This document shows positions 42,597 through 45,330 of a stretch of DNA of 64,000 nucleotides, piece by piece. This stretch comes from Haloarcula limicola. Its GTDB lineage: Archaea; Halobacteriota; Halobacteria; Halobacteriales; Haloarculaceae. Numbering within the stretch: position 1 is the first letter of the stretch; the number at the start of each line of letters is the position of its first letter. The stretch is taken from positions 488,982 to 552,981 of the forward strand of contig NZ_WRXM01000002.1 of assembly GCF_010119205.1 (NCBI RefSeq), written 5' to 3'. The position numbers and the translations under genes are program-made. Below the pieces are notes generated by a model. The model was given only the letters and a program-made list of their open reading frames with translations, had not been told where the DNA came from and ran no database searches.

Positions 42597-43232
42597 ATGC
42601 GATTCGGCGTCGACGAAGCCGGCAAGGGACCCGTTCTCGGGTCGATGTTCGCCGCGGCCGTCCGGGCCGAGCCGGGGAGCCTCCCGGCGGATGTCGGGGA
42701 CTCGAAGGGCATCGCTCCCGAGCGGCGCGAGCAGTTGGCGACGGAGATTCGGGACGCCGCCGACGCCGTCGCCGTCGCGGAGGTCCCGGTCGCCCGCATC
42801 GACGACCCGGAGACGGACATGAACACGCTGACGGTCGCGGCCCACGCGGAAGCGCTCTCGGGCGTGGCGAGCGACGGCCTCGCGGGTACCGTCGACGCGG
42901 GCGACACCGACGCCGAGCGGTTCGGCCGTCGCGTGGCCGACCGCGTGGCCGCCGACGTGACCGTCACCGCCGAACACGGGGCCGACGAGACGGACCCGCT
43001 GGTGGGGGCGGGTTCTATCGTGGCGAAGGTGGCCCGCGACGCCCACGTCGCGGCGCTCGGCGAGACGTACGGCGACGTCGGATCGGGCTACCCGAGCGAC
43101 CCGATGACGAGGGAGTTTCTGGCGAACTACGTAACTCGCCACGGCGACCTGCCCGACTGCGCGCGATCGTCGTGGTCTACCTGTGAGGACGTGCTCGCGG
43201 CCGCCGAACAGGCGACGCTTGGCGAGTTCTGA
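42597..43232 (+). CDS. rnhB: Ribonuclease HII
   Basis: RNase HII of 211 residues removes RNA primers and single ribonucleotides from RNA-DNA hybrids. The N-terminus MRFGVDEAGKGPVLGSMFAA has the catalytic DEAGKG motif. DSKGIAPERR and AHAEAL follow; the later acidic pair is in VGAGSIVAKVARDAHVAALG and VGSGYPSDPMTREFL. ATG 42597 is the family start. Its 3-prime end faces the candidate RNA gene. Confidence 0.93.
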   Translation: MRFGVDEAGKGPVLGSMFAAAVRAEPGSLPADVGDSKGIAPERREQLATEIRDAADAVAVAEVPVARIDDPETDMNTLTVAAHAEALSGVASDGLAGTVDAGDTDAERFGRRVADRVAADVTVTAEHGADETDPLVGAGSIVAKVARDAHVAALGETYGDVGSGYPSDPMTREFLANYVTRHGDLPDCARSSWSTCEDVLAAAEQATLGEF

Positions 43233-43239
43233 CAGCTGG

Positions 43240-43608
43240 AAAGACCCCGCGAACGCGGTTTGGACCTGAACGGGAGATGTTTTCGACGGCCCCTGCGACC
43301 GTGCCGGCACACTGTCGGCGTTTAGCCGGGCTTCCACCGGCCTTGTCCGCGTGGACTTTAACTGGGCTCTCACCAGCCTTGCCGACGTACCGGGTTCCCG
43401 AACGTCGCTTACGTGACGTCCGGTAGTTGGCCTTGCTACCGATCCGGCCGGCCGGACCGGCGATGGGCCGCGGCGGTTCTCCTTCAGAGCGTTCACCTCG
43501 GAATCCTGTGACGGACTGCTCGGTTCTTGCCCCCAACGCGTCCCTTCACGCCCTGTGCGGACGGTTCTGAGACGAGTCGTTCAGTGTATCCCCGCGTTCC
43601 AGCGGGAA
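43240..43608 (-). ncRNA. Candidate large structured RNA, family not recognised
   Basis: No protein is convincing in this 500-base gap. On the minus strand a TATA box (43629-43635) lies about 26 nt before a CCCGC-TGGAAC-GCGGG hairpin (43589-43608). A 9-bp tetraloop hairpin is at 43439-43460, a 9-bp hairpin with one G-U pair at about 43398-43423, and an outer stem GTCGGC/GCCGAC (43381-43386 with 43314-43319) encloses three hairpins. Two of these are a tandem repeat (43357-43380 and 43321-43344) whose stem bases change in pairs (T-A to C-G, G-T to G-C). It ends near a CCGCG-AA-like hairpin at 43247-43258. The RNase P GAGGAAAGUC and SRP helix 8 signatures were not found. A decayed transposon-linked RNA is possible. 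Confidence 0.5.
43247..43258 (-). terminator. Hairpin at the 3-prime end of the candidate RNA
   Basis: CCGCG-TT-CGCGG on the minus strand followed by GGTCTTT, between the candidate RNA and the end of rnhB. Modest terminator, as there is only a short T-run. Confidence 0.35.
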
Positions 43609-43628
43609 CTGTATATACGTCGCGCGAG

Positions 43629-43635
43629 AATATAA
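43629..43635 (-). promoter_or_regulatory. TATA box of the candidate RNA
   Basis: TTATATT in an AT-rich patch, about 26 nt before the first strong hairpin. A second TATA-like GTATATA at about 43612-43618 may be an alternative. There is no coding start codon at the proper distance that opens a recognisable protein. Confidence 0.5.
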
Positions 43636-43743
43636 GTCAATCTAAATTAATTTGTCACACGGTACCAAACGCCAGGGCACGATCGAGACGAAACGAATCC
43701 GTCTGCCGACGGGAGAGACGGGAAACGGCGCGATATCGCCCGT

Positions 43744-45330
43744 TCAGTCCTCGTCTATCACGAGGGCTCGGAGGATGTCACCGTAGGCCGGCCGCGTCAC
43801 CAGCACGCCGATGAGGACGCCGACGATGGTGATGATAGCGAACCCGGAGAGGTCGCCCAGCGAGAGCACCATCAGCGGACTCATGGCGACGATGGTCGTC
43901 GCCGCGGCCGCGCCGATGACCCAGAACGCCTTCCGGAAGCGGTTCTGGAACACGCGGCCGGTCTCGACTTTCCCCTGCTGGAGTATCTCGTCGGCGATGA
44001 TGATGAGGTCGTCCACCCCCGTCCCGATGACGGCGATGAACCCCGCCAAGTGCGATAAGTTCAGCGGGTACTGGACGAACGCGACGAAGCCCAGCAGGAT
44101 GAACACCTCCGAGAGCGCCGTCACGATCATCGGCAGCGCGACCTCCGCCCGGCCGTAACGCCCGTAGACCACCAGACTGACGGCGACGACGGCGAGCAGG
44201 CCGGTGATCAGTGAGTTCGTCTTGAACTGGTCGGCCAGCGCCGGTTCGAGCGAGCGCGTCTGGGTCACCTGCGGGTCGAAGTTCAGCGGCGCGGGGAGCT
44301 GTCCCGCGTCGAGGCTGAGCTTCACCTGCTGGGCCTTCTCCCGGGACGGCACCTCGATGGTCAGCGTCGGGTTCTCGGCGAAGGAGCCGTCGGCGAAGGA
44401 ACTGCCCAGTCCGGGCTGGACGCTGCCGTTGAAGACGACCTCGTCCTCGTAGGTGACCTGCAGACACTCGACGGGTTGCCCCCTGGCCTGTGCCTGCTGG
44501 GGGTTACAGAACCCGCCGTTGCCGAACCCGGCGGCGGCCATCTCCCGCGCGAACGCCTCTGCGGCCCCTTCTTCCATCGTGACCGAGAACGTGTACGACT
44601 CGCCGCCGGAGGCGGTCTGCTGCTGGTTTATCGTCCCGGTCCCGCGGATCGCGTCGGCGCCCTGGTCCAGCACGGCCTTGCGGACGTAGGTGCCGTTCTC
44701 GGCCGGGTAGTAGGCGTACATCCGGACGATACCCCGGTCTTCGAGGATGCTCCGCAGTTCCTCGTAGTCCTTGTCGGGGGCCGTGATGGCGATGTAGTTG
44801 CGCTCGCTGGTGCGGGCCTGGGTCACCGTCCCGCCCGAGAGCGCTGACGTGGAGATCTTCTGGTCGATCGCCTCGACCATCTCCTCGCGCGTCTGTTCGG
44901 TCACGCCCTCTCGAACCGTCTCGGGTTGGTAACCTTGGTTTTCGAGCGCCGTCCGCAACTCCGAGGTCGAGACGTTCTTCGAGAACACCTCGACGGTGCC
45001 GCCCTCGGCCCGGGGCACGGCCTGGATGTCGATCCTGTCGACGCCGAGGCTGTCGGCCAGCGACTGCTCCAGTTGGGCCCGCTGGGTAGTGTTGGTCGGG
45101 ATGTCGACCCCCTCGGCCGTGATCCCGACGACGGGCGCGCGGATGCGCGTCCCGCCGTTCAGTTCGATGCCGTACTGGAGGTTCGTCATCCCCTCGGAGG
45201 CCGCCGCCGACGAGTTGTCGGCCGCGGGGTTACTGCCCGGCGGGACGCCCGGGACGAACAGCGCCACGGCGCTCACCAACAGGAGGACGATCAGCGCGCC
45301 GATGCGCCAGTTCTCGCGTATCGCGCTCAT
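43744..45330 (-). CDS. secD: Protein translocase subunit SecD
   Basis: SecD of 528 residues, an ion-motive-force partner of the SecYE export channel. One N-terminal helix (GALIVLLLVSAVALFVPGVP), a long extracellular P1 domain (residues about 40-355), then five helices of the RND-like core starting around NSLITGLLAVVAVSLVVYGR. AVIGTGVDDLIIIADEILQQ contains the conserved D of the RND channel core. Translated with secF: the secF stop overlaps the secD start (ATGA). Confidence 0.93.
   Translation of the reverse strand: MSAIRENWRIGALIVLLLVSAVALFVPGVPPGSNPAADNSSAAASEGMTNLQYGIELNGGTRIRAPVVGITAEGVDIPTNTTQRAQLEQSLADSLGVDRIDIQAVPRAEGGTVEVFSKNVSTSELRTALENQGYQPETVREGVTEQTREEMVEAIDQKISTSALSGGTVTQARTSERNYIAITAPDKDYEELRSILEDRGIVRMYAYYPAENGTYVRKAVLDQGADAIRGTGTINQQQTASGGESYTFSVTMEEGAAEAFAREMAAAGFGNGGFCNPQQAQARGQPVECLQVTYEDEVVFNGSVQPGLGSSFADGSFAENPTLTIEVPSREKAQQVKLSLDAGQLPAPLNFDPQVTQTRSLEPALADQFKTNSLITGLLAVVAVSLVVYGRYGRAEVALPMIVTALSEVFILLGFVAFVQYPLNLSHLAGFIAVIGTGVDDLIIIADEILQQGKVETGRVFQNRFRKAFWVIGAAAATTIVAMSPLMVLSLGDLSGFAIITIVGVLIGVLVTRPAYGDILRALVIDED

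Follow-up and report, generated by a model that had tools for sequence, protein, structure and literature searches.

The RNA gene and its surroundings

The stretch of Haloarcula limicola DNA analysed here, 64,000 nucleotides long and referred to below as the window, contains a gap between rnhB and secD in which the list of open reading frames offers no convincing protein gene, as a preliminary description of this DNA had claimed. The minus strand of the gap carries a predicted RNA gene, which shares its strand with secD and lies downstream of the secD stop; rnhB is on the opposite strand, and the RNA gene also lies beyond its stop. The 5′ end of the RNA gene was estimated from the TATA spacing and the 3′ end from a T-run at 43238-43245. 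In window coordinates, the features of the locus are the following:

42598-43232, plus strand: rnhB (RNase HII), neighbouring gene; open reading frame and tblastn synteny
43236-43612, minus strand: RNA gene, predicted transcript of about 375 nt with approximate ends; 13 full-length relatives and more distant covariance-model matches
43630-43646, minus strand: promoter TTTAGATTGACTTATAT (BRE/TATA-like); a TTTAGATTGACTTATTAT-type box is kept upstream of relatives
43744-45330, minus strand: secD, neighbouring gene; open reading frame, present in 32 of 32 Haloarcula genomes

The promoter agrees with the TATA box that had been seen before the first stem. A coding reading is rejected: at the DNA level the relatives are 76-91% identical, indels break any reading frame, and the helices are kept. 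Judged by sequence comparison, the minus strand at 43236-43612 is a genuine stand-alone gene for a highly structured non-coding RNA, which is presumably transcribed and would act in trans. The earlier proposal of a stand-alone RNA gene under selection for structure is borne out by the conserved promoter, by a conserved and covarying fold, and by the unrelated loci at which the RNA is found in other families. A decayed gene, a transposon-linked RNA and an absence of covariation were considered as grounds against that proposal, and none of them was found.

A covarying fold with joined ends

The predicted folding energy of the minus strand is -173.3 kcal/mol, against -154.4 kcal/mol for the average of its shuffles (z -3.1, with 1 shuffle in 100 doing as well), and the plus strand is unremarkable against its shuffles (z -1.0; 19 of 100). 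Folding energy by itself is weak evidence, and it is the comparison between sequences that is decisive. An alignment of 27 sequences from many families yielded a nested structure whose 13 helices comprise 81 pairs. In this alignment, 89.2% of the cells are paired against 75.1% in shuffles, a percentage that is particularly inflated because the structure was derived from the same 27 sequences; compensatory, double-sided changes occur in 63 of the 81 pairs (38.8 in shuffles), which is the covariation among relatives that had been proposed as a check; and the covariation score is 0.468 compared with 0.213. None of 500 shuffles reaches any of these measures, and sliding the partners by 1-3 columns makes the pairing collapse to 35-45%.

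In the structure, both ends are clamped by P1a, P1b and P2; the long-range helices are P5 and P5′, and P3, P4, P6, P7 and P8 form hairpins. The hairpins named earlier at 43439-43460, at 43399-43422 and with an outer stem at 43381-43386/43314-43319 are all present, as P6, P7 and P8, respectively. The long-range pairing that joins the 5′ and 3′ ends (P1a, P1b, P2, P5 and P5′) was absent from the preliminary description. Paired bases do lie at the 3′ end, where a short hairpin had been placed, but at least part of that hairpin is the 3′ strand of P1a, whose pairing is long-range. The elements, all on the minus strand, are listed below:

43592-43599 and 43251-43258, minus strand: P1a, 5′ strand GAACGCGG pairing with 3′ strand CCGCGTTC; helix 1, 8 of 9 pairs with double-sided changes, 86.7% of cells paired
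43588-43591 and 43262-43265, minus strand: P1b, GGAT pairing with GTCC; helix 2, G-C to A-U among families
43578-43584 and 43266-43272, minus strand: P2, CTGAACG pairing with CGTTCAG; helix 3, 96.8% paired
43534-43577, minus strand: P3 hairpin; helix 4, double changes in 10 of 10 pairs
43486-43533, minus strand: P4/P4b/P4c hairpin with conserved loop and internal loops; helices 5-7, a strongly conserved sequence block
43478-43482 and 43273-43277, minus strand: P5, GGAGA pairing with TCTCC; helix 8, 97% paired
43465-43472 and 43286-43293, minus strand: P5′; helix 9, 92.6% paired, double changes in 6 of 7 pairs; the 3′ strand is followed by a conserved unpaired GAAAAC (within 43278-43285)
43439-43460, minus strand: P6 hairpin, described earlier as a 9-bp tetraloop stem; helix 10, double changes in 7 of 8 pairs
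43429-43432 and 43297-43300, minus strand: helix closing the P7/P8 domain, GGCC pairing with GGTC; helix 11, with A-U at one pair in 11 sequences and G-C there in another 11
43399-43422, minus strand: P7 hairpin, preceded by a conserved CAACTAC; helix 12, 96.3% paired
43304-43393, minus strand: P8 domain; helix 13 (simple form), with an expansion that varies by family
43387-43393/43304-43310, minus strand: P8 stem CCGGTAC/GTGCCGG, part of the P8 domain
43381-43386/43314-43319, minus strand: second P8 stem, enclosing two hairpin modules with a small hairpin between them
43356-43380 and 43320-43344, minus strand: P8 hairpin modules (module copies)

P5 covaries even within Haloarcula, where GGAGA/UCUCC, GCAGA/UCUGC and GAAGA/UCUUC are found. 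The tandem 24-base repeat reported earlier is present as hairpin modules of 24/25 bases at the two positions listed last. It is a lineage-specific hairpin module (CCGGTGnnAnnCCGG) inserted in P8 that varies in copy number: many families have one copy or none, Haloarcula has two and one genome at least three. At the module site, some families show just one simple hairpin and others bear several copies. The 27-sequence alignment also contains conserved unpaired blocks (AACCGAA, CAAGTAACGG and GAAAAC), features suggesting that the RNA has its own function and is more than a passive substrate.

Comparison with known RNA classes

The large ornate RNAs of bacteria and phages, such as GOLLD, ROOL, OLE and raiA, are long, multi-branched and highly structured, with a helix closing their ends, and the RNA described here resembles them in these respects. 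However, they occur in other taxa, no Rfam match was obtained here, and the present RNA has an identified protein association. The covariance search against Rfam (4227 models), which had been suggested as a check, found no family match for the window RNA or for five distant members; the only hit was a chance match to twister-sister over 17 nt (E=4). The RNA is also absent from Rfam 15. No report of it was found among open-access papers, although RNA-seq tables for Haloferax may already include it as an unnamed transcript.

Archaeal RNase P RNA (RF00373) is likewise large and multi-helical, with similar length, paired ends and a tRNA-processing context. The window nevertheless has no RF00373 match in sequence or structure, either at the gathering threshold or at E<=10, and a separate RF00373 gene is found on the same contig of this genome, about 246 kb away (G000:C2:778993-779362), so that reading is rejected. 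ARAGORN found no tRNA or tmRNA in the window. The earlier judgement by eye that this is not RNase P RNA, SRP RNA, a tRNA or a known riboswitch therefore holds.

Two further candidates fit poorly. The omega-RNAs of IS200/IS605 transposons are structured RNAs too, but the family described here follows the protein HARP (see below) and not TnpB: in 20 neighbourhoods, whose flanking genes were partly scanned, TnpB lies near one RNA only, as a TnpB-like (OrfB_IS605) gene directly downstream of it (L053:6775-8118, genome G034), and a transposon link is rejected. A type III toxin-antitoxin RNA would consist of short tandem repeats in one operon with the toxin gene and upstream of it, and would be cut by the toxin; the RNA described here forms no operon with HARP, which is on the opposite strand whenever adjacent, and its repeats are lineage-specific.

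Relatives and distribution

Apart from the window itself, a DNA search of 60 relatives gave 13 full-length matches, which are 76-91% identical; 12 of them are in the same genus and one in another genus of the family. Partial matches were found in other families. Within Haloarcula, the RNA is present in 13 of 32 genomes, always between rnhB and secD. The genomes without it keep both genes, with a gap of 63-305 nt compared with 481-753 nt where the RNA is present, and owing to this contrast in gap length presence and absence can be told apart cleanly. In Halomicroarcula sp. SYNS111 (G012), secD matches in three pieces, suggesting frameshifts in the gene or in the sequence.

More distant members were sought with two home-made covariance models, R1 for the 5′ core and R2 for the 3′ part, whose E-values are rough. 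With R1, the RNA was detected in 58 genomes out of 243 from Halobacteriales and in 27 of 77 genera, and a more sensitive recheck of 30 RNA-negative genomes left them negative. The RNA sits at unrelated loci across many Halobacteriales families. It is single-copy in each genome except for one tandem pair (L138; G226:C2:121191-121300 and 121634-121743), the copies of which are about 440 nt apart. Outside Halobacteriales, no match was obtained in a 295-genome draw of the phylum, in which RNA-bearing genera are thinly sampled, and a pattern scan of viral contigs had no match; diverged versions may exist beside HARP in methanogens. At one locus (L055, genome G037), the genes on either side of the RNA encode an NYN-domain protein and a 682-aa protein with an LSM domain at its end; both may have RNA-related roles. 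At the Haloferax larsenii locus, the RNA is upstream of an inositol-monophosphatase gene.

Because the loci differ by family, a fixed neighbour and a cis-regulatory element are rejected as explanations. By comparison of sequence and predicted structure, the RNA is the Haloarcula member of a putative new family across Halobacteriales, for which we propose the name HARP-associated RNA.

The RNA follows HARP

In other families, the recurrent neighbour of the RNA is a PIN_5 protein (PF08745); the other neighbours are unrelated. The PIN_5 protein belongs to NCBIfam TIGR03875 ('RNA ligase partner protein'), and its PDB relatives are annotated as 'RNA-free ribonuclease P'; on these grounds we identify it as HARP (homolog of Aquifex RNase P), the protein-only RNase P. 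Aligned HARPs keep the conserved aspartates of FVLDTS, DSREDFD and TED, which we take to be the acidic residues expected of a PIN active site. HARP was found in this way, through recurrent neighbours, and was then tested for co-occurrence, with only full-length matches of E below 1e-50 counted as carriers.

HARP is encoded in 90 of the 243 Halobacteriales genomes. With the RNA called by R1, 55 genomes have both, 3 the RNA only, 35 HARP only and 150 neither (Fisher p=1.1e-26); that is, HARP occurs in 55 of 58 RNA carriers vs 35 of 185 other genomes. The three RNA-only genomes are 63% (G053), 89% (G118) and 99% (G033) complete, and G033 is a genuine exception, in which the RNA occurs without a HARP being found. 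Its RNA (G033:C2:190489-190588; L146, L268) is the sole strong exception. In a genus table compiled by hand from listings, HARP is present in 25 of the 27 genera with the RNA and in 12 of the 50 without it (p=5e-9). When Haloarcula is taken alone, HARP is present in all 13 genomes with the RNA and in 7 of the 19 without (p=4e-4), and all 15 Haloferax species sampled have both. The window genome encodes HARP at G000:C1:1627415-1628026 and Rnl3 at 1626214-1627206, on a different contig from the RNA.

In 22 genomes the RNA gene adjoins HARP, always on the opposite strand, at a distance of no more than about 600 nt (the centres are ~500-580 nt apart). Two families, among whose genera are Haladaptatus, Halorussus and Haloprofundus, have HARP upstream of the RNA in divergent orientation; in two other families it lies downstream and is convergent. 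In a 23rd genome (G111), HARP, the Rnl3 ligase and an RNA found by R2 and locally confirmed by R1 lie together within ~2.2 kb. At four Haladaptatus-type loci (L067, L153, L155 and L158), an aIF5A-like open frame follows the RNA, so that HARP, RNA and aIF5A stand in a row. Shared ancestry is not fully removed by the association tests, but the contrast inside one genus and the adjacency speak against its being the whole cause. The gene and its fold, its patchy distribution nested in that of HARP and its repeated adjacency to HARP genes are apparent from the genomes themselves.

The Rnl3 ligase (TIGR01209) is found in 61 genomes, every one of which has HARP; the ligase never occurs without HARP. 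The RNA is present in all 29 genomes with HARP and no ligase, and in 28 of the 61 with both proteins after two R2 matches are added, one of which comes from the 72% complete genome G210 and is partial. It is therefore commoner in HARP genomes without the ligase than in those with it (p=6e-8), and no sampled HARP genome lacks both RNA and ligase. In the remaining 33 genomes with HARP and Rnl3, neither covariance model detected the RNA, the surroundings of HARP and the ligase included. Strongly diverged forms may be present there, since G111 shows that such forms exist; either HARP does not always need the RNA or the RNA has diverged beyond reach. In G227, G173 and G047, Rnl3 is split or has an in-frame stop, and is possibly decaying or cut by contig ends.

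Proposed role and alternatives

We propose, with a probability of roughly 0.6, that the RNA belongs to the same pathway as HARP, with a looser tie to Rnl3, and that it joins HARP in a ribonucleoprotein, where it guides the nuclease or holds it back. In this model, the transcript would be made from its own promoter and would fold, with P1 and P2 clamping both ends; the folded RNA would assemble with the HARP oligomer; within the resulting ribonucleoprotein it would steer or restrain HARP; and Rnl3, where present, could seal or circularise the RNAs cut by HARP. Three points in this model are our inferences: that the gene is transcribed in Haloarcula limicola, that the RNA physically binds HARP, and which way the effect runs. 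The ribonucleoprotein is favoured by the conserved unpaired blocks of the RNA itself and by the fact that the RNA follows HARP in ligase-less lineages. Tentatively, and at less than even odds, haloarchaeal HARP may act in the cell as a ribonucleoprotein and not as a protein-only enzyme, its RNA setting target specificity or activity; this would be a third RNase-P-like architecture, made of a PIN protein and a dedicated RNA unrelated to RNase P RNA. Against a need for RNA stands Aquifex HARP, which works as an RNA-free enzyme (PMC12153264).

The RNA could instead be mainly a product of the HARP/Rnl3 pathway, with HARP trimming its 5′ end in the way it trims pre-tRNA leaders, the end-clamping P1 mimicking an acceptor stem and Rnl3 possibly circularising it, after which it would act elsewhere. 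We think this unlikely. Almost every aligned member has its 5′ and 3′ ends paired, and Seshadri and Gopalan (PMC12153264) proposed 5′ maturation by HARP followed by circularisation by Rnl3 for C/D RNAs; but 29 RNA-bearing genomes have no Rnl3, and the conserved promoter lies ~30 nt upstream of P1, which suggests that the primary 5′ end is probably near P1, with little leader to trim. Such a route is possible where the ligase exists, but it is not general.

Equally improbable, in our estimate, is that unaccompanied HARP, a VapC-like PIN protein, would damage RNA, and that the RNA restrains it or Rnl3 repairs the damage. An antidote or repair role fits the observation that HARP is never alone, given that all 29 ligase-less HARP genomes have the RNA and that the ligase never occurs without HARP. 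It is opposed by the 28 genomes that carry both RNA and ligase, and type III RNA antitoxins differ from HARP-associated RNA in being short, processed repeats. Knockouts are on record for both proteins: those of HARP in Haloferax and Methanosarcina grow normally (PMC10941002), which is in line with an antidote, whereas a Thermococcus ligase knockout with HARP present also grew normally (PMC12153264), which is not.

A merely indirect link, in which the same lineages keep HARP and the RNA for separate reasons and the function of the RNA is unrelated, appears more improbable still. It would account for the 33 HARP genomes without detectable RNA, for the RNA without HARP in G033, and for the many genomes in which the RNA lies away from HARP, but it leaves unexplained the repeated adjacency in differing arrangements and families and the association within a genus. 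Finally, a cis-acting role for secD or rnhB (as a riboswitch, a terminator or a long leader) or membership of a known RNA class has a negligible chance: the Haloarcula RNA does sit between these two genes, but it lies beyond both stops with its own promoter, occurs at unrelated loci in other families and is missing from many Haloarcula genomes that keep both genes, there is no Rfam match, and the RNase P RNA gene is elsewhere.

Significance for archaeal HARP

The co-occurrence of HARP and Rnl3 has been reported before, with HARP in 9 of 20 Haloarcula genomes (Seshadri and Gopalan 2025, PMC12153264). The association described there involves the same two protein genes, patchy in Haloarcula and other haloarchaea and often side by side; it differs in that the text consulted mentions no RNA component, whereas here an RNA tracks HARP and is present in every sampled ligase-less HARP genome. 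What HARP does in archaea that also have an ordinary RNase P is acknowledged to be an open question (PMC10941002, PMC12153264): its knockouts are without phenotype, and the correlated ligase is the sole partner known for it. The link between RNA and HARP is new here; the preliminary description had offered no function.

The family adds to the catalogue of archaeal RNAs a large structured member that is missing from Rfam. An RNA that follows HARP between genomes provides a concrete and genetically testable handle on the function of HARP in archaea, and it is found in all sampled species of Haloferax, a standard genetic model genus.
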